A stretch of DNA of 64,000 nt from Prochlorococcus marinus XMU1419 (GTDB lineage: Bacteria; Cyanobacteriota; Cyanobacteriia; PCC-6307; Cyanobiaceae). The position numbers and the translations under genes were made by a program. The stretch spans positions 310,001-374,000 of the forward strand of contig NZ_JAAORO010000001.1 in assembly GCF_017695955.1 (NCBI RefSeq), in the 5' to 3' direction. The notes beneath the pieces were generated by a model. It was not told the DNA's origin. It ran no database searches and saw only the letters and a list, made by a program, of their open reading frames with translations. This document shows positions 18,460 through 46,525 of this stretch, in pieces; within the stretch, counting starts at the first letter, position 1, and each line of letters begins with the position of its first letter.

Positions 18460-18523
18460 TTGTTAATTATGGAAAATATTTTTAATATCTGTGGATTTAA
18501 TGGATTCCTTAAGTTTAAAAGAA

Positions 18524-18551
18524 CTAAAAAAGACGGTTAAAAACCGTCTTT
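18524..18551 (-). terminator. Rho-independent terminator
   Basis: Read on the reverse strand, a perfect 10-bp stem AAAGACGGTT/AACCGTCTTT with a 3-nt loop is followed by a six-T run. It lies 28 nt after the stop codon of the gene 18953-18579. Confidence 0.85.
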
Positions 18552-18578
18552 GGAAAAAGTAATTTCTCTAAAAATAAA

Positions 18579-18953: not shown

Positions 18954-19019
18954 ATTTTAAAGTATATTTTAAAGTATTAAGTAGAAGATTCTAAAGATCT
19001 AAATCAAAAAGAACTAAAA

Positions 19020-19448
19020 ATGGATTTAAAAATTACTAAAACATTAGTAATCCCATCCAACGAAATTAAGTGGCGATTTTCCAGATCTTCCGGTCCTGGA
19101 GGACAAAATGTAAATAAAATTGAAAGCAGAGTGGAGATTATTTTTAATTTAGAAGATTCCAAAGTATTAAATGATTATCAGAAAGAAATTATTAAAAAAA
19201 ACTTGAAAAATAAATTAGTGAATAATACCTTACGCTTAGCGGTTCAAGAACATAGAAATCAATTATTAAATAGGCAGCTAGCTTTAATGAAATTTAGTTT
19301 AATCCTAAAAAATGCTTTAAATAACCCATTTAAATCAAGAAAATCCACACAACCTACCAAAGCATCACAAAAGAAAAGAGTTGAGCTTAAGAAAAAACGT
19401 GGCGAATTAAAAAAAAGTAGACAAAAAGAAAAAACATATCAAATATGA
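19020..19448 (+). CDS. arfB: Alternative ribosome-rescue factor / peptidyl-tRNA hydrolase ArfB
   Basis: A 142-aa class I release-factor-like protein. The GGQ motif (residues 27-29, in RSSGPGGQNVNK) hydrolyses the peptidyl-tRNA ester. The basic C-terminal tail (KKRVELKKKRGELKKSRQKEK) is what lets ArfB/YaeJ enter the empty mRNA channel of stalled ribosomes. Stand-alone gene, full length. Confidence 0.93.
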   Translation: MDLKITKTLVIPSNEIKWRFSRSSGPGGQNVNKIESRVEIIFNLEDSKVLNDYQKEIIKKNLKNKLVNNTLRLAVQEHRNQLLNRQLALMKFSLILKNALNNPFKSRKSTQPTKASQKKRVELKKKRGELKKSRQKEKTYQI

Positions 19449-29004: not shown

Positions 29005-29091
29005 TTAATTTTTGCCTTTAAGAATCATAAATAAAGGTAGACCAAAAAGCATCAGACTCCCATCAATTAATAAAAAAGTATTCAGGTTCAT
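29005..29091 (-). CDS. Micro-protein, one helix; paralog of 35633-35728
   Basis: A 28-aa ORF (MNLNTFLLIDGSLMLFGLPL...) with a single hydrophobic helix and a basic end. A close copy lies at 35633-35728 (31 aa), where the first 15 residues are identical. Conservation of the frame between two diverged DNA copies supports coding. Function unknown. Confidence 0.6.
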   Translation of the reverse strand: MNLNTFLLIDGSLMLFGLPLFMILKGKN

Positions 29092-29368
29092 TTATACATT
29101 CCTCCTTAGGTATCCCAATTTAGAGAAATTCCTTTTTTTTAATTTGTTGTTTTTTCATATCATTCATCTCTTTTCTGATTTTGTTGTAGTAGGCAAACTC
29201 TTCTGGATCATCAGAACCAAGACCATAATTCATGGTCGCTGCAAGATAAATGCGGTGCATACGGTATGACGATAGTGGCATTACTAAAGACAAACTATAT
29301 TAAATATATTTAAATTTTAGTTAAAATACTTTATCTACGAGATCTCAGTTATATTAATCAATTGCTCA

Positions 29369-29370
<2 letters not shown>
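29011..29370. repeat. Island-junction repeat, copy 1
   Basis: About 360 bp carrying the two small genes above and running up to the 3' end of tRNA-Thr. It matches 35648-36003 along its whole length with scattered substitutions and short indels. Its last 29 bases (from ATCTCAG) also align without gaps to 46402-46430, just before the second tRNA-Thr. Confidence 0.8.
29120..29281 (-). CDS. Small protein; paralog of 35752-35916
   Basis: A 53-aa protein (MPLSSYRMHRIYLAATMNYG ... YYNKIRKEMNDMKK). A second copy of 54 aa is at 35752-35916; the N-terminal 40 residues are nearly identical and only the tail differs. Mostly synonymous differences between copies suggest selection on the protein. Function unknown. 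The frame on the opposite strand (29012-29269) is a shadow. Confidence 0.65.
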   Translation of the reverse strand: MPLSSYRMHRIYLAATMNYGLGSDDPEEFAYYNKIRKEMNDMKKQQIKKKEFL

Positions 29371-29465
<95 letters not shown>

Positions 29466-29725
29466 CCCAATCAGACTGCCTGCAGCACAATGATTCTGAA
29501 GTGTGCAGAATAAATTTAGACGGCCTTTCTGTGACTGTCAAATTATTTCTAGGGAGTGCTGTAATAGTGATATAGTCCATTTTTTGATTATATTCCTTCC
29601 TCCTAAAAACTTTTTCATGGAAATTTTATGATCTATCTTTTACTATAGCGGCCATGTAATATCGATTAAAAAACAATGATTTTAATTAATTAAAGGGTTA
29701 ATTTATAAGAAATCTTTAAAACATA
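29466..29725. other. Island left edge, no confident gene
   Basis: About 260 bp between the attachment repeat and the first island gene. A reverse-strand frame of 52 codons (29422-29580, ATG GAC TAT...) runs into the tRNA-Thr; because it overlaps the tRNA it is probably not a gene. Nothing else is recognised. Confidence 0.5.
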
Positions 29726-30268
29726 ATGGATTATTCCTTAGAAATAAATAAGAAGAAAAAAGTTTTTGAGGTCACATTAAAATATGCATATGAAAAGTTT
29801 ATAGAACTTAATGAAGCTAGGGATACAATGTGGGGAGGTGGTATTTATATTGCATCAAGCCACACAATTGAATATGTTTTATGGGAAGTAAATCCTGAGA
29901 ATGGTTATGATGATTATGATTATGACGATGACGATGACGATGATGATGATATCTTTGACTACTATTTCTACTTGAAAGATCAGTTAAGTTCCCCAGACTC
30001 GCTAAAAAAATATTTAGATTGGAGAATTCCAGAGGACCTAGAGAACCTTGGTGATAAATTTTTAGCTCCAAGAGATGATGATGATGATAGGCAATGGCCG
30101 ATTGGAGGTGAAGGGTTCCCATTTAAATCAATAGAAGATTTCAAAAGACATGTTGATTATGATCAAATTTGTCGAATCGCATATCTTGCATGGGGAGGTT
30201 TCTCTAGAGAAAGCTTTGAGAAATATTCTTCTATTGAATTATTAAATTATAAAGATCATTTAAAATAA
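29726..30268 (+). CDS. Acidic hypothetical protein with polyaspartate tract
   Basis: A 180-aa protein, strongly acidic. Residues about 60-76 are Asp/Tyr-rich with nine consecutive Asp, encoded by an imperfect GAT/GAC repeat at about 29907-29950; a second five-Asp run is at about 116-120. After the tract come YLKDQLSSPDSLKKYLDW and a C-terminal FKSIEDFKRHVDYDQICRIAYLAW. The order and spacing match the protein encoded at 31883-32329, so they look like divergent paralogs. No catalytic motif seen; phage-mimic or DNA-mimic roles are conceivable only from the charge. Confidence 0.65.
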   Translation: MDYSLEINKKKKVFEVTLKYAYEKFIELNEARDTMWGGGIYIASSHTIEYVLWEVNPENGYDDYDYDDDDDDDDDIFDYYFYLKDQLSSPDSLKKYLDWRIPEDLENLGDKFLAPRDDDDDRQWPIGGEGFPFKSIEDFKRHVDYDQICRIAYLAWGGFSRESFEKYSSIELLNYKDHLK

Positions 30269-30412
30269 ATATTTTTCAATTTCTGCAAAATTATTGCTAG
30301 TTAGTATTGTAATTATTATCAAGTCCAATTATTTTCATAAAAACTTTTTAAAGGGACATTCAAAGAACTTTCTGCTAATTTTCTACTAATACGAGGCTTT
30401 TACTTTATTCAG

Positions 30413-30973
30413 ATGTCCAAGGAATACCCCCTTTTATTTCCTGAATTGGTTGAACAGTTCAACTCGTTGGATGATTCAGATGAAGACTACATTGAAGATG
30501 AATGGGAGGAAGAAGGTCTGAATTATAAAGTTATCGAGTATCCGTCAAATGATATTTCTCCATACAATGACTTCAGAGTCCTTTGTTATAAAAATAACTT
30601 CTATAGATGTTCATTCGATGATCATGCTATTGAAGGATATATGTCCAAAGAATTGTTTGAAAAATATAATGATGATTATTTTGATGAGGAGTACATAGTC
30701 TCTGGAGAATGGATAGAGATTAATGAAGATTCAGAAGAAGACCAAGCGCCAGAAGGGTATTATTCCTTCTCAATTCCATCTATTGTGCAACTTCTAGATG
30801 GTGGAAAGAAGATCGACAATAGATGTATTAATGAAGATCATGAGATTGATACTGATTGGTTAATTGATACTGATGAAAAGGATTTTAAAAATATAATTTA
30901 TGGCGTTTATGGATTTGGAAAAGAAGTTTTATTCAATGATGAATTTGTAATTAAAGAGAGATACAACGGTTAA
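30413..30973 (+). CDS. Acidic hypothetical protein
   Basis: A 186-aa, very acidic protein (FNSLDDSDEDYIEDEWEEEG; DDYFDEEYIVSGEWIEINED). Beta-strand-like pattern in the middle (FRVLCYKNNFYRCSFDDHAIEGYM). No family recognised. It is one of three Asp/Glu-rich proteins clustered in the left half of the island. Confidence 0.6.
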   Translation: MSKEYPLLFPELVEQFNSLDDSDEDYIEDEWEEEGLNYKVIEYPSNDISPYNDFRVLCYKNNFYRCSFDDHAIEGYMSKELFEKYNDDYFDEEYIVSGEWIEINEDSEEDQAPEGYYSFSIPSIVQLLDGGKKIDNRCINEDHEIDTDWLIDTDEKDFKNIIYGVYGFGKEVLFNDEFVIKERYNG

Positions 30974-30995
30974 AGATTATTATCCCCTTTTTTGG

Positions 30996-31787
30996 CTAAT
31001 TTGAATCTATGCTAAAAGCTTTTAGTACAATCTCATCTGTTAATTTGATACTTTCATTTCCTCCAAGTTTGCAGTCGTTAAGAAAGTAATTCTCAAATCC
31101 AATCATTGAAGAATGTAGTAATAACATGTTTATTTTGGTTGATTGCCCTTCGCTAATTGAATTTGTCTGAGCAACATATCCTGCCAAAATTTCCTTCACA
31201 AGTTCCTTCCCTTTTGATTCGTACTCGCTAATGCAAGATGCAGTTAATGCGGCGGCACATTCATATTCCCAATCTTCCACTTTTTTAGGATCCCACCAAA
31301 ACTCATCGGGTTTTGTTTCATAATGTCCATAGGTTCTTTCTTTTGTCTTCTCAACTAAAAAATTAAGCCAATCTTTAGATTCACTTTCAAACCAGTTCTT
31401 AGTAAAGTTCTTTAAATTTTCAAGCTTTTCTAAACTTTGCTCCTCCCTAGATTTCTCAGGCATAAAATATGGATCAAAACTTCTAATGTATTTTTTATGT
31501 AAACCAAACCATTTATAAATAAATTCATTGCCGTCGTCATAATCAAAATCCAAAGGTAATTTATGAAAAATCATAATAACTGATTCTTCAGACTGATCAG
31601 AAATTGTTGGAAAATATTCTCCAATTCTTGACATGTCTAATAATGTTGAGGTGTTTATTTTGTAGCCAAGGTTATCAAGTTTATTTCTTAATCCCATAGA
31701 ATCAAATAATTCAATACCAAGAGATTGTTCTTCATCAAACTGCCCTTCAAATTCTGAATAAAAACTTTCCCAACTAACAGGCTTCAT
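30996..31787 (-). CDS. Hypothetical protein starting MKPVS
   Basis: A 263-aa soluble protein, mostly helical, no recognised domain. It shares its first five residues (MKPVS) and a 38-nt promoter segment with the gene at 31883-32329, so the upstream region was duplicated between them. Trp/acidic-rich centre (KPDEFWWDPKKVEDWEYECAA). Confidence 0.6.
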   Translation of the reverse strand: MKPVSWESFYSEFEGQFDEEQSLGIELFDSMGLRNKLDNLGYKINTSTLLDMSRIGEYFPTISDQSEESVIMIFHKLPLDFDYDDGNEFIYKWFGLHKKYIRSFDPYFMPEKSREEQSLEKLENLKNFTKNWFESESKDWLNFLVEKTKERTYGHYETKPDEFWWDPKKVEDWEYECAAALTASCISEYESKGKELVKEILAGYVAQTNSISEGQSTKINMLLLHSSMIGFENYFLNDCKLGGNESIKLTDEIVLKAFSIDSN

Positions 31788-31807
31788 TTAACTAACCAAT
31801 TAGAGAA

Positions 31808-31845
31808 ATGATAAGTGTAAAAACTTTTTCTAACAAGAAGTAAAT
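31808..31845 (-). promoter_or_regulatory. Duplicated promoter segment, copy A
   Basis: Read on the reverse strand: TTGTTA, 17 nt, TATCAT, a good sigma-70-type promoter ending about 20 nt before the start at 31787. Nearly identical to 32348-32386. Confidence 0.6.
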
Positions 31846-31882
31846 GTTCATTATTTAATAAGCGGTGCAAGTAGTAAAAGTT

Positions 31883-32329
31883 TTATTTTTTAAAATCAAT
31901 TTTAAATTGTCCTTCTTGAAAAACATCTTCACCATCACAACTTCTCTCCCAACATTTCCTAAATGATTGGAAGCATAAATTAAAGTCTAGATCTTCCAGA
32001 AATTCATCAAAATTTTTATAGAAACAATCCTCAGTGTTGCCTATAAAAAAATAAGGGCCTTCTGGTTCTTCTTCTTCTTCAAATCTAACTTTTAAATAAT
32101 CTTTTAACCCCTTCTGGGTACTTGTCCATTTATAAATATCTTCTAAAAAATCAAAAAATTCAATAATCCCCTCATCATCTAAATCATCATCATCTGGGCA
32201 AATATGATCCCAAACTACAGAGACCGCAGAAATAGTTGCCGATGAACAGCAAGTTGGTCCCTCTTTAATCATCTGATCAAGATAATTTTCTAGAATTATT
32301 GAATAAGCTGAGATAGATACAGGTTTCAC
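31883..32329 (-). CDS. Acidic hypothetical protein, paralog of 29726 product
   Basis: A 148-aa protein with a GTG start (MKPVSISAYS). It has an Asp run (PDDDDLDDEG), then FFDFLEDIYKWTSTQKGLKDYLKVRF, a Glu run, and NFDEFLEDLDFNLCFQSFRKCW, in the same order as the 180-aa protein at 29726. Six cysteines. Function unknown. Confidence 0.6.
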   Translation of the reverse strand: MKPVSISAYSIILENYLDQMIKEGPTCCSSATISAVSVVWDHICPDDDDLDDEGIIEFFDFLEDIYKWTSTQKGLKDYLKVRFEEEEEPEGPYFFIGNTEDCFYKNFDEFLEDLDFNLCFQSFRKCWERSCDGEDVFQEGQFKIDFKK

Positions 32330-32347
32330 TTAACTAATTAAAAAGAG

Positions 32348-32386
32348 ATGATAAGTGTAAAAACTTTTTTCTAACAAGAAGTAAAT
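32348..32386 (-). promoter_or_regulatory. Duplicated promoter segment, copy B
   Basis: Matches 31808-31845 except for one extra base in the T/A run, giving TTGTTA, 18 nt, TATCAT on the reverse strand, about 20 nt before the GTG at 32329. Confidence 0.6.
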
Positions 32387-32498
32387 CTTCATTTATTAAT
32401 TTTGCTGATTAATGATTTTTTTAAGCTAGAAATTTTGTTTTTACTTTTTTGTAAGGATAATCTATATATAAGAAAGATTCTTTCTGAATTAAAAAATC

Positions 32499-33353
32499 AT
32501 GATAGATCTGAAAAGAAATAGTAAAAAAGAACCTGTAAAAGCAACTGGATTAAGGACAAGAGCATCTTCATCTTATTCTCCTAATCAGAAAGAAGATTTC
32601 AAAATAAGTAGAGGAAGGTTTTCAAATTTTTTAACCTGCAAGAGATGTTTTTACTTGGACCGAGTAAAAGGACTTGACCCGCCAGGAACACCTGGATGGA
32701 CTTTAAATGAAACTACTGATTTGCTCTTAAAAAAAGAATTTGATTATTGCCGAGAAAGACAAATCCCACATAGATTATTTATCGACAATGATTTAAGTCA
32801 TCTAGTTCCTTTTGATCATCCTGAGATAGATGATTGGCGTAATTCTCTTCACAAAGGATTGATGCTTCGCCATAAGGATACAAATATCATCTTGACAGGA
32901 GGGGTTGATGATATCTGGCAGCATAAGATTACTAAGGAATTAATAGTTGTTGATTACAAGTCACAGGCAAAACTTGGGAGAGTAGATAAACAAGATTATC
33001 TTGATGATCCTTATCATGAAGGCTATAAAATCCAGATGGATTTCTATGCCTATCTTCTTAAGGGGATGGGATTTGATGTTCATAAAACATCCTATTTTTT
33101 AGTTTGCAATGCAAAAAGAGATGATGAAGAATTTAATAAAAGAATGAATTTTGACGAATATTTAGTCCCTTATAATTGGAATATTGATTGGATTGAGAAA
33201 GAAATAGATTCAATGGTTTCTTTGATGAATAATGACCAGATTCCGGAACCAAATCTATCCTGTAAAAATTGTGCTTATTCCGAGCAATATGCCAAGTTAG
33301 TTTGTAATCCTGTGAAAGATGATAGTGATGAGATTCAGGGGAATCTGTTTTAG
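32499..33353 (+). CDS. Cas4-like PD-(D/E)XK nuclease (orphan)
   Basis: A 284-aa protein. The nuclease core shows Asp in GGVDDIWQ, then ELIVVDYKSQ (the D-x-K motif), then KIQMDFYAYLL (the helix after motif III, with the Q-x-x-x-Y of the Cas4/RecB group). Cysteines flank the core: TCKRCFY near residue 47 and LSCKNCAY near 250, a pattern fitting a 4Fe-4S cluster as in Cas4/AddB. No CRISPR array or other cas gene is in the window, so this is a stand-alone nuclease in island cargo. Confidence 0.8.
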   Translation: MIDLKRNSKKEPVKATGLRTRASSSYSPNQKEDFKISRGRFSNFLTCKRCFYLDRVKGLDPPGTPGWTLNETTDLLLKKEFDYCRERQIPHRLFIDNDLSHLVPFDHPEIDDWRNSLHKGLMLRHKDTNIILTGGVDDIWQHKITKELIVVDYKSQAKLGRVDKQDYLDDPYHEGYKIQMDFYAYLLKGMGFDVHKTSYFLVCNAKRDDEEFNKRMNFDEYLVPYNWNIDWIEKEIDSMVSLMNNDQIPEPNLSCKNCAYSEQYAKLVCNPVKDDSDEIQGNLF

Positions 33354-33418
33354 CCAACTTTTTGCCTATGCTTTAGCTGGAATGCGATAATTTTATTGAT
33401 TGACAGTCGATCTACAAT

Positions 33419-33441
33419 AAGGGGCAATTAGCTCCTTTTTT
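33419..33441 (+). terminator. Terminator-like hairpin touching the next start codon
   Basis: AAGGGGC-AATTA-GCTCCTT with a seven-T run, ending 1 nt before the ATG at 33443. It may simply end the nuclease transcript; its position against the ATG, with no room for a ribosome-binding site, also allows an attenuator. A TACAAT -10-like box is at 33413-33418. Confidence 0.65.
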
Positions 33442-33442
33442 T

Positions 33443-33727
33443 ATGTCAATTGAAACAACTGTTTTGGATTTCAAATTAAGCAATACTTTTGAGGAATATG
33501 AGGCTCATATGAATGCTCCTGAACAACAGGCGATGTTTAAAGAGATGGGAGTAAAAACTTTTTATATTGGCAAATCATTGGAAGACCCCAAAAGAGCGAC
33601 AGTTATGTTTCAAGGCCCAGTAAATACTTGTTACGACATCTTTGTTAATCCAGAAACTAAACCAATAGTTGAAGCATCGGGTCATATTTATGAAGGGACA
33701 ATAATTAACCGCTGGATTTCTGAATAA
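33443..33727 (+). CDS. Small protein, DUF3764-like
   Basis: A 94-aa protein (FKLSNTFEEYEAHMNAPEQQ ... GIKTFYIGKSLEDPKRATVMF-type pattern, then YEGTIINRWI). The pattern recalls DUF3764, a cyanobacterial ferredoxin-like-fold (dimeric alpha/beta barrel-like) family of unknown function. It starts directly after a terminator-like hairpin, so translation may depend on that leader. Confidence 0.6.
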   Translation: MSIETTVLDFKLSNTFEEYEAHMNAPEQQAMFKEMGVKTFYIGKSLEDPKRATVMFQGPVNTCYDIFVNPETKPIVEASGHIYEGTIINRWISE

Positions 33728-33729
33728 TT

Positions 33730-34233
33730 TTGAAACGACTAATTCTTACTGCAATATCATTTTTATTTCCTTTCTACGCTCAAGCTGGCTTTCCAGAAGG
33801 TGAGAATGGTTATGATCTGAAAAAAATTGAAGAGTCTTTTAGATTACCCTGTGATGAAATTGGAAATGATGATTGTATTGCAAGAGCATTGGGTGTCGGT
33901 GCCTGTACCTGGGTATTTGGAATAAACAAAGATAAAGAGCCTGCGGAGGCTTTAAAAATTGCAGATAATGTTTTAATTGCTCTTCTGAAAGGAAATAATC
34001 TTGATTTAAAATCAATGCTTGAAAAAGATGGATTGATTAAAAATAATATTAAAAAAGAAGCCACTTACAGAATTAACTTCTGCAGTGAAGAGACAAAAAA
34101 AGCTATCCCAAAGTTAGTAAAGAAATTGCCTGAGGGTGTTGTATTAGATGAAGAGAGAATAGAGGATTTAACCAGTGTATTTCCTCTTCAATATTTAAGT
34201 ATGTTTGAGCAATTTAGCAAAACTAAAAAGTGA
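33730..34233 (+). CDS. Exported hypothetical protein
   Basis: A 167-aa product with a TTG start 2 nt after the previous stop. A clear signal peptide (KRLILTAISFLFPFYAQA, cleavage after AQA) leads a mature domain with four cysteines (LPCDEIGNDDCIARALGVGAC ... FCSEET) that could form disulfides in the periplasm. Not recognised. The following gene overlaps its stop. Confidence 0.6.
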   Translation: MKRLILTAISFLFPFYAQAGFPEGENGYDLKKIEESFRLPCDEIGNDDCIARALGVGACTWVFGINKDKEPAEALKIADNVLIALLKGNNLDLKSMLEKDGLIKNNIKKEATYRINFCSEETKKAIPKLVKKLPEGVVLDEERIEDLTSVFPLQYLSMFEQFSKTKK

Positions 34234-34652
34234 AACCCTTGGAAGAAAAAACTGATCAACTTACAGAAAAGGAAGCTTTGAGTATTTATGCGAAAATGAT
34301 GCATACTCTTGATTCGTCTGAGTTTGAATCGTATTTGTCAGAAGATTTCACATACTCTTCACAGAAAGTCTTGACCGATATGAACACAAAAGATGAATTC
34401 ATGGAATACATCAGACCGAAGCTTGAAACAATAAAAAAAACTAACAGTTCTGTTTATGCCGAATTAGGTGTCTGCCCAGCCTATGGTCATACAGATTGCC
34501 TCATCATGGCGCAAGGCGATAAATCTAATCTTCTTGGAGTTGCTTATGCTTCTGTAGATAAAGGAAAAATATCAGGTATTTCCTTGTGTATTGTACCCAC
34601 TCCTGATTCGGCAGAGCGGAGTGGAATTTATCCTGGACTTCAGTCGAATTGA
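34230..34652 (+). CDS. SnoaL/NTF2-like protein
   Basis: A 140-aa protein with a GTG start in a GTGA overlap with the upstream stop, so translationally coupled. The cone-fold pattern is suggested by AKMMHTLDSSEFESYLSEDF and the later strands; SnoaL-like is a weak call. No catalytic residues assigned. Confidence 0.55.
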   Translation: MKPLEEKTDQLTEKEALSIYAKMMHTLDSSEFESYLSEDFTYSSQKVLTDMNTKDEFMEYIRPKLETIKKTNSSVYAELGVCPAYGHTDCLIMAQGDKSNLLGVAYASVDKGKISGISLCIVPTPDSAERSGIYPGLQSN

Positions 34653-34845
34653 ATAATACAAAAATACTTCTTGCGGACCGTTATTTCATTTGGCAATATT
34701 AGTAACCGACTCCAAAATTGGCACATCAACATAAGATGTTTCCCTTAATGGCCAGATAGAACTGAAGGAATAAAAGTCAGGGATTTTCTAATATTTTTCT
34801 TTCGGTTCAGCTGTTAAAAAGCTCCTACACACATACTGATAGACA

Positions 34846-35628
34846 ATGAAAATTATTAAGAGACTCAGGTCGCTGCCGGGCGATTCTCTGGGTGTTATAC
34901 GCCGCACCCCGCCACTTGTTTTCGCAATGGCTGTCTTATCTCTCGGAGGATTTATAGGTGCCTCCACGGTCCTTGTGAGAGGGTTCAGAACGGTTGAAAA
35001 TACTATCACTGTTACGGGTGCAAGTACAGAGAGTTTTGAGAGTGATATTGCAAAATGGTCAGTCCAAGTAAAGACCTCAGGTAAAACTCAGATTGACTCA
35101 TTCACCAAGCATAAGCAGTCCATTAATAAGACAATGGAATTCCTTAAAGCCAATGGAATTGAAGACAGTGTAAAGCAGGATGTTTATCTTGGACCTGCGA
35201 GTATAAGTGAATATAAAACAAAGCATCCTAAGACTAATGAAATCATTAGAACTGAATGGATTACTTATCAGAATATTGAGATTGAAAGTAGGGATGTTTA
35301 TAACATCCAGAAGACTCATAGTCAGATTACAGAATTACTTGGGAAAGGGGTAAGGGTGAAACCAAGCCGTCCTGAATTCACTTATTCAAAGCTGGCTGAT
35401 AAGCGCGTTGACATGCTTGCTAAGGCAGCAAAGGATGCACGAATCAGAGCTGAGGCTATTGCGCTTCAGGCAGGATCTGAAGTGGGTGGTTTGAAGAGAG
35501 TTAATACTGGAGTTTTTCAGATAACTGTTCCGAATTCCACCAAGGTAAGCAGTTGGGGTTCTTATGACACCACCACCATCAAGAAAGATATTACTGCCGT
35601 TATGGGAGTGACTTTCGCGGTTAAGTGA
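34846..35628 (+). CDS. SIMPL-domain (DUF541) protein
   Basis: A 260-aa membrane-anchored periplasmic protein. An N-terminal hydrophobic helix (FAMAVLSLGGFIGASTVLV, about 26-44) precedes a SIMPL domain: ITVTGASTESFESDIAKWSV, the KANGIEDSVKQDVYLGPASI segment, and the helix DMLAKAAKDARIRAEAIALQAG before the C-terminal strand. The family includes oxidative-stress protein YggE and signalling-associated SIMPL. The first 100 nt of the gene are clearly more GC-rich than the rest, suggesting a foreign origin or recombinant 5' end. Confidence 0.85.
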   Translation: MKIIKRLRSLPGDSLGVIRRTPPLVFAMAVLSLGGFIGASTVLVRGFRTVENTITVTGASTESFESDIAKWSVQVKTSGKTQIDSFTKHKQSINKTMEFLKANGIEDSVKQDVYLGPASISEYKTKHPKTNEIIRTEWITYQNIEIESRDVYNIQKTHSQITELLGKGVRVKPSRPEFTYSKLADKRVDMLAKAAKDARIRAEAIALQAGSEVGGLKRVNTGVFQITVPNSTKVSSWGSYDTTTIKKDITAVMGVTFAVK

Positions 35629-35632
35629 TGAC

Positions 35633-35728
35633 TTAGGGAGTTTTCTTTTTGCCTTTAAGAATCATCAGCAAAGGCAGACCAATAAGCATAAGACTCCCAT
35701 CAATTAATAAAAAAGTATTCAGATTCAT
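35633..35728 (-). CDS. Micro-protein; paralog of 29005-29091
   Basis: A 31-aa ORF (ATG at 35728) with one hydrophobic helix and a basic tail (KGKKKTP). The frame is preserved relative to its copy at 29005-29091. Tail to tail with the SIMPL gene. Confidence 0.6.
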   Translation of the reverse strand: MNLNTFLLIDGSLMLIGLPLLMILKGKKKTP

Positions 35729-36003
35729 TTATCCATTCCTTCGGGGGTATCCTAATTTAGGGGTATCCCTTTTTTAACTGGGTCCTTTTTCATATCATCC
35801 ATCTCTTTTCTAATTTTGTTGTAGTATGCCAACTCTTCTGGATCATCAGAACCAAGACCATAATTCATGGTCGCTGCAAGATAAATTCTGTGCATCCGGT
35901 ATGACGATAGTGGCATTACTCAAGACAATCTCTGTTAAATATATATGAATTTATGGCAAAATGCTGACCTCTGAGATCTTAGTCATACCAGTCAATTGTG
36001 CAA
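35648..36003. repeat. Island-junction repeat, copy 2
   Basis: Matches copy 1 (29011-29370). Copy 1 ends at the tRNA-Thr; this copy ends at a GC-rich stretch (CAACCCCCTC...GGGGGG) with no recognisable tRNA. It separates the left and right halves of the island. Confidence 0.75.
35752..35916 (-). CDS. Small protein; paralog of 29120-29281
   Basis: A 54-aa protein (MPLSSYRMHRIYLAATMNYG ...), almost identical to its copy over the first 40 residues, with a different tail (KKDPVKKGIPLN). Function unknown. Confidence 0.65.
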   Translation of the reverse strand: MPLSSYRMHRIYLAATMNYGLGSDDPEELAYYNKIRKEMDDMKKDPVKKGIPLN

Positions 36004-36056
36004 CCCCCTCATAATACACGGGGGGAAGGGGTAAAAAACAAGAAATTTAGAGGGGA

Positions 36057-36094
36057 CTACTTACTGGATGTGTATACATCATCATTGTAAGTAG
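36057..36094. repeat. Hairpin A upstream of the defence cluster
   Basis: CTACTTAC (36057-36064) pairs with GTAAGTAG (36087-36094); nested inside, GATGT (36067-36071) pairs with ACATC (36076-36080). It lies in the 316-bp non-coding stretch 35917-36232, 140 nt before vsr. Possible operator, RNA leader or replication signal. Confidence 0.55.
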
Positions 36095-36127
36095 GTGCAA
36101 TAAAGCATAATCAACCACAACTAAAAC

Positions 36128-36186
36128 ACCTATATAAGGTACGTGGGTATGTGTGTAAACACATAATGCACGTACTGTATATAGGT
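36128..36186. repeat. Hairpin B upstream of the defence cluster
   Basis: A 59-nt three-tier inverted repeat: ACCTATATA/TATATAGGT (36128-36136 with 36178-36186), GTACGTG/CACGTAC (36139-36145 with 36169-36175) and ATGTGT/ACACAT (36149-36154 with 36159-36164), 22 paired positions in all. It ends 46 nt before vsr. Confidence 0.65.
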
Positions 36187-36232
36187 ACCTATAGGGTGAT
36201 GGTGATTATATTGTTTAAAACTTATTGGTTAG

Positions 36233-36649
36233 ATGAATAGTGAAGTAATACATAAGGTAAGTGAGCAGAGATCAAGGAATATGTCTGCCATTAAATCAAA
36301 GAATACAAAGCCTGAAATCAAGGTAAGAAAAGTTCTTCATTCTATGGGATATAGATTCAGACTTCATTCAAAAGATTTGCCCGGGTCTCCAGATATCGTT
36401 CTCCCAAAATATAAAACCGTTATCTTTGTCCACGGATGTTTCTGGCATAGGCATGAGAATTGCAAGTATGCCTCCACTCCAAAAACAAGGCAGGAATTCT
36501 GGAACAAAAAATTCACAGAAAATATAAAAAGGGATTCAGAAATTCAGGATAAAATAAAAAATCTTGATTGGAGATCTGTTGTTATCTGGGAATGTGAAAC
36601 AAAAAATATAGAAAATTTAAGAGATAAAATAATTGATGTTTTTAGTTAA
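36233..36649 (+). CDS. vsr: Very-short-patch-repair-type endonuclease
   Basis: A 138-aa Vsr-family nuclease. The family pattern is almost complete: RSRNMSAIKSKNTKPEIKVR, GYRFRLH, DLPGSPDIVLPKYK with the metal-binding Asp54 (Asp51 in E. coli), FVHGCFWHRHENCKYAS with zinc/metal Cys-His residues, and the final VVIWECE. Classical Vsr nicks T:G mismatches left by deaminated 5-methylcytosine and accompanies a C5-methyltransferase, as here (dcm-type gene directly downstream). In plasmid and island systems Vsr-like proteins can also act as restriction nucleases. Confidence 0.93.
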   Translation: MNSEVIHKVSEQRSRNMSAIKSKNTKPEIKVRKVLHSMGYRFRLHSKDLPGSPDIVLPKYKTVIFVHGCFWHRHENCKYASTPKTRQEFWNKKFTENIKRDSEIQDKIKNLDWRSVVIWECETKNIENLRDKIIDVFS

Positions 36650-36737
36650 TAAATTGGTTGACTTTATAAATCTCGGTGCCATATTAAATAAGAATTTAAG
36701 AGAAGAAAGATTCAAGAATCTCAAGATAGCAAATTAA
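36636..36737 (+). other. 33-codon ORF overlapping vsr end and dcm start
   Basis: ATG at 36636 lies inside the last codons of vsr in another frame; the frame ([20 protein letters not shown] ...) ends TAA at 36737, overlapping the methyltransferase frame by about 45 nt. It is the only conventionally started frame that could deliver ribosomes to the methyltransferase, by frameshift or reinitiation. Whether it is translated is open. Confidence 0.35.
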
Positions 36738-37813
36738 ATATTTTACAAAAGCAGTTTGATTTTATCGATCTCTTTGCAGGTATAGGTGGCTTTAGAAAAG
36801 GCTTTGAATCAATTGGTGGAAATTGTGTTTTTACGAGTGAGATAGATAAATTTGCTCAAGAAACGTATAAAGCTAATTTTCAGACAGAACATAAATTTGC
36901 TGGAGATATTAGAGATGTGGATACAAAATCAATACCAAGTCATGATGTTTTACTTGCGGGATTTCCATGCCAGCCTTTTAGTCTTGCAGGCGTAAGTAAA
37001 AAAAATTCACTTGGTAAATCTCATGGCTTTGATTGTCAGATCCAAGGGACTTTATTTTTCGAAATAGCAAGAATTCTCGAGCATCATAGACCCAAAGCAT
37101 TTCTTTTGGAAAACGTAAAAAATCTCAAAAGTCATGATAAAGGTCAGACCTTTAAAACTATTCTTGACGTATTAAAAAATAAGCTTGGTTATAAAGTTCA
37201 ATATCGTGTAATCAATGCAAAATCTTTCGTCCCTCAAAATAGACAAAGAATTTATATAGTCGGTTTTAGGGAAGAAAACAATTTTAATTTTGATGATTTA
37301 ATTATTCCGGATATATCAGATGGTCCCACATTATCTTCGGTACTTCATTCTGAAGATGGATCCGAAACTTTTGAAGAACCATACACTATTCCCCATCTTT
37401 CAAAAGTTAATGAAAAATATACCATCACTAATAAATTATGGGACTATCTAAGGATGTATGAAAAAAAGCATAGAGCCAAAGGTAATGGATTTGGTTTTGG
37501 CTTATGTAAGCATGAAGATGTTGCTAGAACTTTGTCTGCCAGATACCACAAAGATGGTGCTGAGATATTAATACATCAGGGAGATAAAAAGAATCCAAGA
37601 AGACTTACCCCAAGAGAGTGCTCAAGGTTGATGGGTTTTGATAAAACTGGCGAATCAAATTTTATAATTCCAGTCTCTGATTCTCAAGCCTACAGGCAAT
37701 TTGGTAATTCGGTAGTAGTTCCTGTTATTCAAGAAATTGCTAGAGCTATGAGTGAATATATCTATCAAAAAGATATTTTGAAAGAAAAAATCGTATTACC
37801 AATCTGTGCTTAA
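36710..37813 (+). CDS. dcm: C5-cytosine DNA methyltransferase, start uncertain
   Basis: Methylates cytosine C5 using SAM. Motif [16 protein letters not shown], motif [13 protein letters not shown] with the catalytic Cys, motif [10 protein letters not shown], motif [15 protein letters not shown], and motif [13 protein letters not shown] are all present, so the enzyme looks functional. The frame is open from 36692 to the TAA at 37813, but there is no ATG, GTG or TTG before the GTG at 36917, which lies after motif I. The real start must be a rare codon (ATT at 36710 or 36740 are candidates), or the frame is entered by frameshift from 36636. I list from 36710; the 5' end is unsure. Confidence 0.85.
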
Positions 37814-37905: not shown

Positions 37906-39333
37906 ATGACTAATGCTTCGGAATTAATTGATGCAACACCTTCTGCAGCATTACTTATCGAGAGTATAAGGGATATTGGTTATTCTATTGAAACAGCGAT
38001 ATCAGATTTGATTGATAATTCTATTTCAGCAAACGCAAATAATATTTATATAAATTTGAATGATGATGATGTCGAAAATATTTTTCTTGAGATTGTTGAT
38101 GATGGTCATGGAATGAATCGTAATGAACTAATAAAAGCAATGACAATAGGAGCAAAAGATCCGCGCATTATTAGGGATAAAGATGATCTAGGTAGATTTG
38201 GTTTAGGACTTAAAACAGCATCATTTTCTCAATGCAGAAAACTAACTGTTGAATCAAATTTTAATGATGAAATTAATTCTTTCACATGGGATTTAGATTT
38301 AGTAAGAGAAAAAAATAATTGGGTTGTAATAGATAATAAAAAAGATAATTTAGCTCCAGGAACTAAAATTATTTGGGAAAAAATTGATAGAGCAGATTTT
38401 AAACTTAGCAAAATTAATACTAATAGTATTCTTAAAAATATTGATAATCATTTAGGTTTGGTTTTTCATAGATTCTTAGAGGGTATAAATTTAAAAAGTG
38501 AGAAATTAAAAATTTTTATAAATGGTAGCGAAGTCGAACCAATCAATCCTTTTAATGAAGAAAGTAATGCAACTTTAAAATCTGCTGTAAGTACATTTAA
38601 ATATAATAATTCTAATATTTATGTACAATATTTCATTCTTCCACACGAAGATATGGTCACAATGGAGGAGTGGAAAAAATTTGAGATGGATGGCGGATAT
38701 ATTAAGAATCAGGGTTGTTATGTATATAGATGTAATAGATTAATTGTTTCTTCTACTTGGTTTGGCATTATGCCGAAATTAGCAACAACCAAACTTTGTC
38801 GAGCCAAAATTGATATTGGAAATGATATTGACTCAGATTGGAAGATAGATATAAAAAAAAGTACCGCTTATCCTCCAAAATCAATAAAGAATTTTTTAAG
38901 TGAGTTAATAATTAATAATATCGAAAGCAAGGGTAGAAATGTAGTAAATAAAAGAACTCAAGAACTCATAAAAGATAAAGATATGAAGCTTTGGGTTCCC
39001 ATCAGAACAAAAAGAAAAATTACTTATAAAATAAATAGAAAACATCCCTTAGTAAAAAAACTTTTAAATAATAAAGAAAATTTATTGATCTTAAAACTTC
39101 TTGAAAACTCAATTCCTTATCAGGAGATCTATGGAGAGATGTGTGATAATTCAGCAACTGTTATTGGATGGTTAGAGGAAGATAAAAACGTACTAAATGA
39201 TGTAAAACAACTTATTGAAATTTTTAGATCTGATAATGTTCCAGAAGAAATAATCAAATCTGAAGTTGAATATATTTTAATAAGATCAGGAATTCAGTTT
39301 AATGAAGAAAGCTTTTTAGAGATTTTAAAATGA
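37906..39333 (+). CDS. GHKL ATPase, MORC/MutL-like
   Basis: A 475-aa protein with a histidine-kinase-like (GHKL) ATPase domain: N box ETAISDLIDNSISANA (residues 29-44), G1 box VDDGHGM (64-70), G2 box LGRFGLGLKTAS (95-106). No kinase dimerisation helix or receiver is seen, and the region after 130 looks like an S5/MORC-type extension. Such GHL ATPases, related to MutL and eukaryotic MORC, are known in prokaryotic restriction-modification neighbourhoods. Its stop overlaps the Z1 start by ATGA, so the two are translationally coupled. Confidence 0.88.
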   Translation: MTNASELIDATPSAALLIESIRDIGYSIETAISDLIDNSISANANNIYINLNDDDVENIFLEIVDDGHGMNRNELIKAMTIGAKDPRIIRDKDDLGRFGLGLKTASFSQCRKLTVESNFNDEINSFTWDLDLVREKNNWVVIDNKKDNLAPGTKIIWEKIDRADFKLSKINTNSILKNIDNHLGLVFHRFLEGINLKSEKLKIFINGSEVEPINPFNEESNATLKSAVSTFKYNNSNIYVQYFILPHEDMVTMEEWKKFEMDGGYIKNQGCYVYRCNRLIVSSTWFGIMPKLATTKLCRAKIDIGNDIDSDWKIDIKKSTAYPPKSIKNFLSELIINNIESKGRNVVNKRTQELIKDKDMKLWVPIRTKRKITYKINRKHPLVKKLLNNKENLLILKLLENSIPYQEIYGEMCDNSATVIGWLEEDKNVLNDVKQLIEIFRSDNVPEEIIKSEVEYILIRSGIQFNEESFLEILK

Positions 39334-42170
39334 ATGAAACTTTTCGATTAATAAAGAATCAGGCTAGAAGCTCAACAAAGAGATTTATAGATGCAAATCA
39401 TAATATGCCTGAAAATAAAATTAGAAAAAAAATAGATCAACTTGTCGTACAACTTGCAAAAATAAATAGCATTGAATTAACAAATTCAGAAAAGGAAGAA
39501 ATTATTCAGGCAGTAGCTCTAGAAATTGTTGGGACAATGGAAGATGCAAGTAATATTTTCAATATTGATAAGTTTGACCACTGGTTAGACAATGTTAAAT
39601 CGGATTTTGATAATAAATACTGGGAAGATTATCATTTTCATTTGTTCCAAAAACCTTATTACACAACTGGGCCAAATGGTACTTTAACCAAAATGGGAAA
39701 TAGCATTGAATTTATTCTCTCTATGTTGGCTAATCCTAATGGCGAGCCTAGTTCTAGAAAGGGAATGGTTGTTGGTAATGTGCAATCTGGGAAAACATCT
39801 CATTATATAGGGCTTATATCAAAAGCTGCAGATGCTGGTTACAAGGTAGTTATTGTTATTACTGGTATGTTAGAGGATCTTAGAAAACAAACTCAAACAA
39901 GAACTGAAGAAGGATTTTTAGCTAAGGATGTCCAAACAGGAGAGTCTGTTGGTGTTGGACTTGAAAGATTAAGACTTAGTTCTCAAATGCCTAATTGTGT
40001 CACTACTAGAGAAAAAGATTTTACCAAAAGTCTTGCGGTGAGCAGTGGATATACAGTTGAAAGTTTTAAAGAGGCATTTGTATTAGTAATTAAGAAAAAT
40101 GCTTCAATTTTAAGAAATCTAAATGAGTGGATTGAGGATGATCTCCAAAGAATTGGAAGGACACAAGTAGATACATCTGTTCTAATTATTGATGATGAAG
40201 CTGATAATGCATCAATAAATACAAAAGCAAATTCTAGTAAATCCAGAAGAAGGAGAAAGCTTGACGAAGTTGAGGATAATGCAAATTATGAACCTTCTAG
40301 AATCAATGGTCAGATAAGAAGCTTGATTAAAAAATTCGAAATTTGTTCTTATGTTGCTTATACTGCTACGCCATTTGCAAATATTTTTATTAGCCCTAAA
40401 ACAAAAGATGAGATGTACAGAGAGGATTTATTTCCGAGACACTTTGTTCAATATATAAATCCTCCTGATAATTATTTTGGACCATCAAGAATCTTTTTAG
40501 ATAAGGAATTTCCAAATTTTTTGAAAATTATTCCAGAATCTGAAATCGACGGAACAACTATAAATTCAATTCCGTTGAAACATAAAAAGGATTTTTCAAT
40601 CGAAAAAATATCGCCAAAATTAGAAGAATCAATTAATAGTTTCTTTATATCTTCTACTGTTAAAAAATTGGAGGGTTTTGAAAAAGATCATACTTCAATG
40701 CTTATTAATGCTTCTACATTTACTCTTGTTCAAATTTCTATTAAAAGAGCTACTGATTTCTATGTGAAAAATTTAGCAAAAGCATTAAAGTATCGTCGTA
40801 AAGAAGAAATTCAAATATTAAAAACTTTATGGGAAAAAGATTATGTTGATTATCACGATAAATATGAATGGAGTGATATAGAAAATCTTATATATAAAAT
40901 TGTAGATCTAACAAAAGTAATAGTTATTAACAGATCTAAGGAATCTGAAAAATTAGATTATGAAAATTGGCCTTCTGGTAGAACCCTTATTGTTGTAGGT
41001 GGTTTTTCTTTATCTAGAGGATTAACTTTAGAGGGTTTAATTGTTTCCTATTTTGTAAGAAATTCAAAAATGTATGATTCTATTTTGCAAATGGGAAGAT
41101 GGTTTGGATATAGAGATGGTTATGAAAATCTTTGTAGATTATATTTGCCATCTTTTTCGATAAAAGATTTTGAACATATTTCAGAGTCAGTTGAGGAACT
41201 AGCTGAAGATATTCAGTATATGCAAAGTCAGGGAAGAACGCCTTTGGAATTTGCTCTAAGGGTTAGGGCTGATGCATATGATAAAAAACTAAAGATCACC
41301 TCAAGAAATAAGATGGGTGCAGGGGAAAAGCGATTGAGGTCTTTTTCTTATAGTGGCAAATTAGTTCAAAACTATGCTTTTGACAGGGATACTATTTCTC
41401 ATAATTGGAATGTTGTTGAAAGTTCAATTTTAGAAATTATCAAATCCGAATCAAATCAATTTTCGAGAAAGAAAAATCAATATGTTTTGTTCAAAAATAT
41501 TCCAGGTCAATTTATTTCTTCGCTAACAGAGGAATATAAATTTTCTGATGATAATTCGACAATAAATAAGCAAACTTTGCTTAGTTATATCAAAAAAAGA
41601 CTTTCATTTGAATTGAATAATTGGGATATAATAATAGATTCAAATTTATTAGATAATAAAAAAGAAACTATTGATTTCGCAGGAATTTCAATTGCCCCTG
41701 TGGGAAGAAGTGTTTCTGTTTATGTTGGTAATAAATACGAAAATCTTGAGTTTGATTTGGAGAAGTTAGTTTATTTATCACCGCCGAGGAGTCGTAATAT
41801 TTGCACTCCTGATATCTCCTTAATTTCATATGAAGACATCCAAATTAATGAGGCTGAAGATATAAAGAAGGAGCAGAAGAAAAGAATTAGAACAATAAAT
41901 TTATTGGCAAATATACATAAGAAACCTGCTTTAATAATTACTCTCTGTAAGCCTACTTATAAAGAGGAATATTTGCTAAATAAAGATGATGAAGATAAAA
42001 AAAATCAAGTCCAAAAATTAATATCTGAAATGCCATATGTTGCAAGTTTAAGTTACTTATTTCCGCGTTCCGATGTTGCAGAAGAATTAATTGAAGTCTT
42101 TGTAAATGCGGATGTTGATGATTTATATGGAGAAGATCTTGATTATGAAGATTATTATGGTGATGATTAA
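39330..42170 (+). CDS. Z1-domain P-loop ATPase (superfamily II-like)
   Basis: A 946-aa protein. Walker A is GNVQSGKTSHYIGL (about 149-162), Walker B is VLIIDDEADNASIN (about 284-297), and the C-terminal helicase half has VVGGFSLSRGLTLEGL and ILQMGRWFGYRDGYENLCRL (arginine-finger-like motif VI, about 583-602). This is the Z1 domain organisation, a DNA translocase or helicase-type motor. It starts in a 4-nt overlap with the GHKL gene and ends in TAATG with the next gene. Confidence 0.92.
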   Translation: MNETFRLIKNQARSSTKRFIDANHNMPENKIRKKIDQLVVQLAKINSIELTNSEKEEIIQAVALEIVGTMEDASNIFNIDKFDHWLDNVKSDFDNKYWEDYHFHLFQKPYYTTGPNGTLTKMGNSIEFILSMLANPNGEPSSRKGMVVGNVQSGKTSHYIGLISKAADAGYKVVIVITGMLEDLRKQTQTRTEEGFLAKDVQTGESVGVGLERLRLSSQMPNCVTTREKDFTKSLAVSSGYTVESFKEAFVLVIKKNASILRNLNEWIEDDLQRIGRTQVDTSVLIIDDEADNASINTKANSSKSRRRRKLDEVEDNANYEPSRINGQIRSLIKKFEICSYVAYTATPFANIFISPKTKDEMYREDLFPRHFVQYINPPDNYFGPSRIFLDKEFPNFLKIIPESEIDGTTINSIPLKHKKDFSIEKISPKLEESINSFFISSTVKKLEGFEKDHTSMLINASTFTLVQISIKRATDFYVKNLAKALKYRRKEEIQILKTLWEKDYVDYHDKYEWSDIENLIYKIVDLTKVIVINRSKESEKLDYENWPSGRTLIVVGGFSLSRGLTLEGLIVSYFVRNSKMYDSILQMGRWFGYRDGYENLCRLYLPSFSIKDFEHISESVEELAEDIQYMQSQGRTPLEFALRVRADAYDKKLKITSRNKMGAGEKRLRSFSYSGKLVQNYAFDRDTISHNWNVVESSILEIIKSESNQFSRKKNQYVLFKNIPGQFISSLTEEYKFSDDNSTINKQTLLSYIKKRLSFELNNWDIIIDSNLLDNKKETIDFAGISIAPVGRSVSVYVGNKYENLEFDLEKLVYLSPPRSRNICTPDISLISYEDIQINEAEDIKKEQKKRIRTINLLANIHKKPALIITLCKPTYKEEYLLNKDDEDKKNQVQKLISEMPYVASLSYLFPRSDVAEELIEVFVNADVDDLYGEDLDYEDYYGDD

Positions 42171-43150
42171 TGATTAATTTTTGGCAAGGCTTATGGGATC
42201 AAAAAGTTCCCAAAGGTGATCTCAAATATGCCTCTATTTCATTAGCTCTAAATTCTCCTTGGATGATAAAGGCTACTAAAGATGATAAGGGGAGAATAGG
42301 ATTTCAATTAATTGCAGAAAAAACTAAAATGAATGATCAGATATATAAACGTAAGTTATTGAAAACTTCTCAAGTTTCTGTAACCTTTGTAGATAAAAAA
42401 ACTCTATATATAAGATTGGAAGATATAGACGCAAAAGAAGAATTTAATGAATACGCAGAGAGCATAATAATCAAAGCAGCACAGGCATCATCAGAAATTG
42501 AAATGATAGAAATTGCTATTTCTAAATCCTTAAAATGGTTTAATTTTTTAAAGCCTATTAATGAAAGAAAATTAAAACCATTTCAGCAACAGGGACTAAT
42601 AGCAGAACTATTATTTCTAAAAAAAATCGTCAATAAAATTGGTTTATCTGATGCGCTTAATTCTTGGTGTGGTCAAGAAAGTTTTGACAAAGATTTTATT
42701 TTAGGAAAATTAGGTGTAGAAATTAAAGCTAAACAATCCGGAAAAATAAAAGTAACAATTTCATCATCATCTCAACTAGATTTACAAGGTCTTGAAAAGC
42801 TTATATTGAACGTTTATAGCATTAATAGTGCATCCTCACTCGATAAAAATGCTTTTAATCTTGATCAACTAGTTTCTGAGATTTATGAGTTATTTTCTTC
42901 AGAAATAAATTTAAAGTACTTGTTCCAGGATAAATTAGATGAGGCTAATTATGACTTTGACCATGACTATTCTGATAGGTTTTGGATAGATTTAGAAGAA
43001 AATCAATTTTATAACGTCACAGAAAAATTCCCATCAATTACATCAGAAAATATTAATGTAAAATCAATTTCTAATGTTTCTTATGATATCAATTTAAATA
43101 CAATTAAAGAATTTAAAATAACTGCAGAGGAATTTGAAAAATTAATATAA
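42170..43150 (+). CDS. PD-(D/E)XK-motif protein, DUF4420 type
   Basis: A 326-aa protein. The nuclease-like core is around residues 140-195: helix QQQGLIAELLFLKKIV, then FILGKLGVEIKAKQSGK with an E-x-K active-site motif. The acidic residue expected before it would be Asp in ESFDKDF. This matches the DUF4420 family, a restriction-endonuclease-fold group found beside Z1 ATPases. It overlaps both neighbours by one base (TAATG). Confidence 0.85.
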   Translation: MINFWQGLWDQKVPKGDLKYASISLALNSPWMIKATKDDKGRIGFQLIAEKTKMNDQIYKRKLLKTSQVSVTFVDKKTLYIRLEDIDAKEEFNEYAESIIIKAAQASSEIEMIEIAISKSLKWFNFLKPINERKLKPFQQQGLIAELLFLKKIVNKIGLSDALNSWCGQESFDKDFILGKLGVEIKAKQSGKIKVTISSSSQLDLQGLEKLILNVYSINSASSLDKNAFNLDQLVSEIYELFSSEINLKYLFQDKLDEANYDFDHDYSDRFWIDLEENQFYNVTEKFPSITSENINVKSISNVSYDINLNTIKEFKITAEEFEKLI

Positions 43151-45231
43151 TGGAAGATTTCTTAGTTGATTTAAATAATGAAATTTATTTACAGTCAGCT
43201 TCTAATGGTGAGACTACTCAAGATACATTTTTTGAAATTATTTCAGAATTATTAATTGATGATGGTGTATGTAAAGAGGCTCAAATAGTAAATGATTGGA
43301 ATAATGATAAAACTGGAATTCAGATTAATGGTTATGGAGGAGATCCATTCAATGACGAAAATGTACTAACAATTTTTTTGGTAACTTTCAGTGCAAGTAA
43401 TGAAATAGTTGGCATAAATATGGCGGAATTGTCATCCCTCATTAAAAGAGGTGCAAACTATATTAATAAAATTAGAAATAATGAATTTGTATCTTCTCTT
43501 GAAAAGACATCAAGTATGTTTTTAGTATCCCAATTCTTATCAAGAAGAATTACTGATGTTGAAAAATTTAGATTTGTAGTATTAACAAATAAATTATTAA
43601 AAGTTAGATCAGAACAAATTGATACACCTACTATAAATGATAAAAATTCTGAAGCTGAAATTTGGGATTTAGATAGGATAAAAAGACTTTATGAGGGAAA
43701 AAATACACAAGAAGATATAGTTATAGATCTAAAAAATGACTTAAAAGAGTGCATTCCTGTCCTCAGAGCTGATCTTTCATCTGTAAATTATCTATCTTAT
43801 CTTGCTGTAATAAGTGGCGATTTATTAGCAAGGATATATGAGCAATGGGGTAATAGATTATTAGAAAGAAATGTCAGAGTTTTTTTACAGGCTAGGGGAA
43901 AAGTTAATAAAGATATAAGAGATACTATTGAAAACCGGCCACAAATGTTTTTTGCTTTCAATAATGGGATAACTGCTACAGCTGATGAAGTAAAGTTGGA
44001 GACTCTAAATAATGCAAGAGTAATAACTGAAATTAAAAATTTGCAAATAGTTAATGGAGGACAAACTACTTCTTCAATTTATGCAGCCTTTAAAAAAGAT
44101 GGTGTATCGCTTAAAGAAGTTTTTGTTCAAATGAAGTTGTCAGAAATAAAAGAGAAATCAATGGCTGATGAGATTGTTCCTGAAATTTCAAGATGTGCGA
44201 ATAGTCAAAATAAGGTTAAGTCTCCAGATTTTTCTTCAACACATCCTTTTCATAGGCAAATTGAAAAACTATCTAGGAGAATATATGCGCCAACAACCAA
44301 TAATCAAATAAAACCAAGTAAATGGTTTTATGAAAGAACTAGGGGACAATACTTGGATAATAAAAGTAAATTTAAAGGTGCTGAAAAAAAGAGATTTGAG
44401 AATGAATATCCTAAAGATCAATATTTCCTTAAAACAGATTTAGCTAGATATATCAATGCATGGGATCAGATTCCCACAATTGTAAGTAAAGGTCCAGAGA
44501 AGAATTTTACATATTTTACCGGTTTAATTGAAAAAAATTGGGAGAAGAATTCTGACAAATATAACGACTTTTATTTTAAGAATCTCATTGGTAAGGCTAT
44601 TTTATGGAATAAAATTAAGAAATTGGCTTCCAAGAAAAATGGCATCCTAAATTATGGAACAAATGTCACAATTTATGCAATTTCGAAGATTTCGTATGAT
44701 ATCCCACAGAGACTAGAATTTGATTTTGTAAAGGTTTGGAATAGTCAGTCAATAAGACCAGATTTTGAAAATTGTTTATTAGATTTAGTTCAATTTCTTT
44801 ATCAAATTATTAATAATCCACCTCCAGATCAAAATTCAATTCCATCAGAATTTGCAAAAGCTCAAAAATGTTGGGAAATAATTAAAGAATCAAAATTTCC
44901 TTGGAACAAATCTATTGAATATTATTTAATATCGAAAGAAGCATTGAAGAAGGAAGAAAGTTCTTCAAAAAAAGTTAAAAAATTAACAAATGATTTGGAA
45001 CTGGAAATATTAGTAGCCAAAAAAAATGGCACGTTTTGGAGATCTTTAGATGATTGGATTTTCGCGAACTCTAGTATGATCAAAATAACAGGAACTGAAG
45101 CAAAATTATTGAAAGATTCTAGAGGTATACATAAAACTTTTTTCCCGAATACTTTTGAGTGTAAGCGATTAATTAATCTATATCAAAGAGCTAAGGAAAT
45201 AGGTTTTCCTGGAGAATTTGATTTGAATTAG
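43150..45231 (+). CDS. AIPR-family (abortive infection phage resistance) protein
   Basis: A 693-aa protein. The AIPR core is recognisable: FFAFNNGITATADEV (about 269-283), NLQIVNGGQTTSSIYAAF (about 297-314), then EVFVQMKL and EISRCANSQNKVKSPDF. AIPR proteins are named for abortive infection and occur in phage-resistance and restriction loci; biochemistry is poorly known. It is the last gene of the coupled four-gene run. Confidence 0.9.
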   Translation: MEDFLVDLNNEIYLQSASNGETTQDTFFEIISELLIDDGVCKEAQIVNDWNNDKTGIQINGYGGDPFNDENVLTIFLVTFSASNEIVGINMAELSSLIKRGANYINKIRNNEFVSSLEKTSSMFLVSQFLSRRITDVEKFRFVVLTNKLLKVRSEQIDTPTINDKNSEAEIWDLDRIKRLYEGKNTQEDIVIDLKNDLKECIPVLRADLSSVNYLSYLAVISGDLLARIYEQWGNRLLERNVRVFLQARGKVNKDIRDTIENRPQMFFAFNNGITATADEVKLETLNNARVITEIKNLQIVNGGQTTSSIYAAFKKDGVSLKEVFVQMKLSEIKEKSMADEIVPEISRCANSQNKVKSPDFSSTHPFHRQIEKLSRRIYAPTTNNQIKPSKWFYERTRGQYLDNKSKFKGAEKKRFENEYPKDQYFLKTDLARYINAWDQIPTIVSKGPEKNFTYFTGLIEKNWEKNSDKYNDFYFKNLIGKAILWNKIKKLASKKNGILNYGTNVTIYAISKISYDIPQRLEFDFVKVWNSQSIRPDFENCLLDLVQFLYQIINNPPPDQNSIPSEFAKAQKCWEIIKESKFPWNKSIEYYLISKEALKKEESSSKKVKKLTNDLELEILVAKKNGTFWRSLDDWIFANSSMIKITGTEAKLLKDSRGIHKTFFPNTFECKRLINLYQRAKEIGFPGEFDLN

Positions 45232-46317: not shown

Positions 46318-46401
46318 CTCCAGATATCTGCCTATAAAACAGAAAAGTGGACCCGAAAACGGACGTCCACTTCTAATGAATTTCTTTGTGCGATAGTGGC
46401 A

Positions 46402-46428: not shown

Positions 46429-46430
<2 letters not shown>
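46402..46430. repeat. 29-nt motif outside tRNA-Thr, copy 3
   Basis: Aligns without gaps to the last 29 nt of the island-junction repeats 1 and 2 (core [AG]ATCT[CT]A[CG]T-N-ATA). It is directly beyond the 3' end of the right tRNA-Thr and could be an integrase arm or core site. Confidence 0.45.

Positions 46431-46512
<82 letters not shown>

Positions 46513-46525
<13 letters not shown>

Follow-up and report, generated by a model that had tools for sequence, protein, structure and literature searches.

The two inverted repeats in front of the vsr gene form, together with a conserved motif upstream of them and the GGTACC palindrome TATAGGTACCTATA, a single module that does not depend on the cargo and stands at the left border of the cargo zone in a tRNA-Thr tyrosine-integrase element. 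The best overall explanation is that the module serves the element as a site acting in cis, most likely at the DNA level, and we hold that explanation at about even confidence. The original prediction had placed the hairpins in front of a defence cluster and offered an operator, a structured 5' leader or an element origin. A link with the defence cluster found no support, as unrelated cargo lies behind the hairpins and empty sites lack them, whereas the part of the prediction that pointed to a mobile element was upheld. The positions of the features in the window, by which we mean the whole 64-kb stretch of DNA analysed, are collected in Table 1.

Table 1. Features of the element and its cargo in the window
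Feature	Position	Strand	Description
attL, left copy of 97-bp direct repeat	29369-29465		followed by the left arm
Left arm TAGGGAGTGCTG..TAGTCCATTTTTTGA	29550-29586		also beside tRNA-Thr in other genera
Junction repeat	35646-35998		second copy of small-gene flank; ends just before the module
Conserved motif AACCCC-N2-CATAATACACGGG(GGG)	36002-36025	+	C4/G4 dyad around -10-like CATAAT
Hairpin A	36057-36094		8-bp outer stem, inner GATGT/ACATC stem
Hairpin B	36128-36186		stacked 9-, 7- and 6-bp arms, GTAA loop
Palindrome TATAGGTACCTATA	36180-36193		overlaps the end of hairpin B
vsr, first cargo gene	36233-36649	+	PF03852, TIGR00632
Cytosine-5 DNA methyltransferase (dcm-like)	36734-37813	+	PF00145; start codon uncertain
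MZA-like cargo	37906-45231	+	HATPase (MzaB-like), Z1 (MzaC-like), DUF4420 (MzaD-like), AIPR (MzaE-like)
Tyrosine integrase of the element	45325-46317	-	PF00589; probable start ATG near 46290
Right-end repeats AAAAGTGGAC / AACGGAC / GTCCACTT	46343-46372		arm-site-like
attR, right copy of 97-bp direct repeat	46429-46525		tRNA-Thr and 3' end of tRNA-Tyr

Stability of the hairpins and the upstream motif

Both predicted inverted repeats were borne out by an inverted-repeat search, with the outer arms of hairpin A at 36057-36064 and 36087-36094 and the arms of hairpin B at 36128-36145 and 36169-36186. As RNA, hairpin B has a minimum free energy of -31.7 kcal/mol on the + strand and -26.1 kcal/mol on the - strand, with z-scores of -7.1 and -7.2 against shuffled sequences, none of which folded as well as the native one; DNA parameters gave z-scores of -7.7 and -7.5 on the two strands. 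When the 64 kb were scanned in 60-nt windows at a step of 5, with both strands required, none of 12,788 windows equalled it. The energy of hairpin A is ordinary (z -3.3 to -3.6), and at 38 nt about 30 places in the 64 kb are as stable. Hairpin A is exceptional by its conservation and not by its energy. The description of the structures as far from random is strongly supported for hairpin B (z about -7) and only moderately for hairpin A (z about -3.3).

The motif AACCCC-N2-CATAATACACGGG precedes both hairpins and is unique in the genome. A search of 11 genomes from four genera, in which up to 3 mismatches were allowed, returned a single match per 1.6-1.9-Mb genome in eight, all of them element carriers, and no match in the other three. 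In other genera the motif stands at the left end of the element, and its -10-like CATAAT or TATTAT is kept with fixed orientation. A decayed att core at 36002 was considered and rejected because other genera have the same motif about 200-300 bp inside the element, and the idea of an iteron was rejected because most elements have only one copy of the motif.

The host element

The hairpins sit in an element of the tycheposon type, with a tyrosine integrase beside tRNA-Thr and flanking 97-bp direct repeats. Tycheposons of Prochlorococcus are cargo elements of 4-200 kb that are bordered by a tRNA and have a tyrosine recombinase of the XerD-like kind (PMC10872708). The island described here has tRNA-Thr at both ends inside the direct repeat, a PF00589 protein beside the tRNA, variable cargo at a fixed site and empty sites in relatives. 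It thus has the tRNA border, the adjoining tyrosine recombinase, the interchangeable cargo and the Prochlorococcus host in common with tycheposons, whereas the two-hairpin/GGTACC boundary module is a feature that the literature searched does not mention. The two copies of the 97-bp repeat are identical and each holds a whole tRNA-Thr, that of the right copy (46430-46502) adjoining the integrase. The integrase matches the NCBIfam XerA/C/D models weakly, below their cut-offs, and its close relatives are found only in Prochlorococcus/Synechococcaceae genomes.

The 97-bp repeats probably mark where an element of 17 kb truly ends on either side, with a second variable zone inside it at 29466-35640. 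The junction repeat noted earlier does exist and is longer than had been implied; it is 85% identical to 29009-29364, the flank of the second tRNA-Thr copy. Kept across genera are the right-end repeats AAAGTGGAC/GTCCACTT, which other genera have as AAAGTGGAC..GTCCACTTT, and the left arm with AGTCCACTT. A small inverted repeat, GGTGTCATC..GATGCACC, lies at 46286-46312 just upstream of the integrase start and has counterparts in other genera (GCATC..GATGC). The window also carries the cyanobacterial RNA Yfr8 and an ORF (29726-30268) that encodes a long stretch of aspartates (DDDDDDDDD) and had no Pfam match; relatives of the window sequence are Prochlorococcus, including MIT 9302 and MIT 9401. 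One further locus, L131 of genome G228 (6931-19125), consists of two tandem elements, both of which have an integrase and a tRNA-Thr of their own.

The module is independent of cargo

The 240-bp hairpin region was matched in 20 other genomes of the genus, and a two-hairpin model in 33 of 200 genomes. There is one locus per genome, except for a degraded second copy in G167, and the module always lies left of the integrase and tRNA-Thr wherever its position could be read. At least 10 unrelated gene starts follow hairpin B in the genus. The vsr-dcm-MZA order stands behind it in the window and in G229; elsewhere the module is followed by vsr with other genes, by other methyltransferase or restriction-modification loci, by unrelated or convergent genes, or by nothing. 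A convergent gene comes right behind hairpin B in five elements (L036, L054, L066, L068 and L155), and integrase remnants do so in L034 and L045. The module is kept, partly truncated, even in cargo-free remnants (L034, L037, L039 and L045), in which parts of hairpin A or B directly adjoin the right end or the start of the integrase. Several genomes have a decayed integrase and decayed hairpins, and behind the core of hairpin B (..GCACGTAC) the sequence diverges fast. Neither hairpins nor motif were present in 8 empty tRNA-Thr sites. Since the module recurs before unrelated cargo and is absent from empty sites, it is a part of the element and not an operator of the defence cluster. It comes and goes with the element rather than with the defence genes; it delimits the cargo zone on the left and stays while the cargo behind it changes. 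In L040 (G252), at about 6980-7030, hairpins A and B are fused through a deletion between ATGTGTGTA, which their loops share.

The MzaB-E-like proteins of the window matched PADLOC, Pfam and NCBIfam models, all below the NCBIfam equivalog cut-offs, and the PADLOC and NCBIfam searches of the cargo gave no MzaA-named match; curated thresholds did not identify an MZA system (MzaA-E). The gene order HATPase, Z1, DUF4420, AIPR is that of the MZA anti-phage system (MzaB-MzaE), with dcm and vsr in front. These genes are cargo and not the origin of the hairpins. Homologues of vsr occurred in 12 of 44 high-completeness genomes, all 12 belonging to the 20 that matched the hairpin region and none to the 24 that did not, which indicates that vsr is tied to the locus and not the locus to vsr. 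The genus set searched holds four MZA loci (that of the window and those of G229, G252 and G316), all behind the module because the locus is shared; in G252 and G316 the MZA order is inverted behind vsr. The loci L030 and L040 have MZA-like cargo inverted behind the same vsr, with an AIPR gene 36-38% identical to that of the window; here one locus has probably captured the same type of defence independently.

Conservation and pairing

Over 35 distinct sequences, conservation was 0.94-0.99 in hairpin A and 0.93 in the core of hairpin B (about 36139-36175), compared with 0.82-0.88 in the linkers, 0.78-0.83 in the outer stem of hairpin B and 0.70-0.74 beyond it. The sequence of hairpin A is about 97% conserved, and the loops of hairpin A and of the hairpin B core are conserved as much as the stems. 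The loop of hairpin B is GNRA-like in 28 of the 35 sequences (GTAA in 24, GTGA in 3, GCAA in 1). Stem changes within the genus followed no compensatory pattern, those in hairpin B had no bias for G-U over A-C (11 versus 13 types), and a strand-bias test for a folded + strand was negative. With neither compensation nor strand bias, the genus data agree with a sequence-specific site no less well than with a folded RNA. The expectation that the repeats would recur in front of orthologous clusters was confirmed, with hairpin A fused to hairpin B in G252; on preserved pairing the outcome was less favourable, as changes in the outer stems within the genus are largely uncompensated, and the check as a whole is mixed.

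At least seven other genera have the same order of motif, hairpin A', hairpin B' and AGGTACCTA, with stems that are unrelated in sequence and still paired. Their integrases belong to the same family (55-62% identical), and their elements lie between two tRNA-Thr copies and are without vsr or MZA. In L132, TAGGTACCTATAGGG behind hairpin B' is identical to the sequence behind hairpin B in the window. The hairpin B' pattern, GGTG..CTCAT..TCGAC-GAA-GTCGA..ATGAG..CACC, was found once in each of 8 genomes, which span 7 genera, with no control matches. Hairpin A' has three stem versions around a common GAGC-loop-GCGA tip; its pairs were counted by script, and the MAFFT alignment could not place a one-base shift. 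Five of its 12 stem pairs have changed on both sides and still pair (35 of 36 cells paired), and hairpin B' has one such both-sided change, the independent stem types being few (three or four). In L223/L193 hairpin B' is followed directly by an integrase that has decayed, and a tRNA-Thr(cgt)-like copy lies upstream.

Function of the module

We infer that the element has in this module a site that works in cis, more likely as DNA than as RNA. DNA is preferred because the module persists behind convergent cargo and in remnants, both strands are stable and the loops are conserved. The inverted repeats and the palindrome would be recognised by a protein of the element, of the host or of a helper, possibly as extruded or single-stranded DNA, for replication or mobilisation. 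The CATAAT/C4-G4 dyad may be an adjoining promoter/operator, and islands that have this left module in common, along with a right end bearing integrase and tRNA, could exchange cargo by recombination. The idea of an accessory site for the integrase was weakened, because about 6.5 kb separate the module from the attL arm in this genus, which makes it unlikely to take part in integrase recombination itself. Integron attC sites are folded-DNA recombination sites with R and L boxes in a cassette array. The module may be likened to them as an imperfect hairpin where unrelated cargo begins in a tyrosine recombinase element; it differs in being present in one copy per element, with no cassette array and with an integrase that acts at tRNA-Thr. 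Two hairpin patterns had no match in IMG/VR, and a search of phage records gave nothing.

A transcribed leader is a serious rival, to which we assign an appreciable though clearly lower probability than to the DNA site. CATAAT would be a promoter, and hairpins A and B a 5' leader, or an independent small RNA, controlling the downstream cargo. The orientation of the motif and the many co-directional first genes (vsr type, L035, L038, L063, L070, L071 and the elements of other genera) would suit it, as would the GNRA-like loop, and the pairing kept in A' and B', compensatory pairs included, would suit RNA as well as DNA. However, a convergent gene follows hairpin B in five elements, the stem changes of the genus are uncompensated, a sigma-70 promoter scan found no site, and a search of Rfam, also a permissive one, gave nothing at gathering score and only chance microRNA-type matches.

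Two further explanations carry little weight. A transcription barrier between the two cargo zones, either a bidirectional terminator or an insulator, would account for a module that lies between two variable zones, with a hairpin B stable on both strands and some cargo genes converging on it. We regard it as improbable: the GC stem followed by a U tract of an intrinsic terminator is absent and the terminator scan was empty, and a barrier would not need conserved loops or the AACCCC motif. Still less credible is an operator or leader specific to the vsr-dcm-MZA operon. In its favour, 12 of the 20 carriers have vsr as their first gene and share about 45 bp of DNA up to its start, yet G179 has vsr without hairpin A or B, and the module is kept before unrelated cargo, in cargo-free remnants and in other genera that have neither vsr nor MZA. 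Cargo-independent conservation largely refutes it.

The element type is already known, and the claim of novelty for the module is limited: no description of it was found in the literature searched, a set outside which the original tycheposon paper lies. Our tentative suggestion, which may well prove wrong, is that tRNA-Thr tycheposons across Prochlorococcus genera have in this module a common site for mobilisation or replication (or for cargo joining) that acts in cis and has not been described before, its stems rewritten and its fold and order kept, and that islands with only integrase and cargo could be moved in trans. A single-copy, cargo-independent module kept across genera offers a concrete handle on how such minimal Prochlorococcus islands replicate, move and exchange their cargo, and its motif could serve to locate their cargo boundaries automatically.
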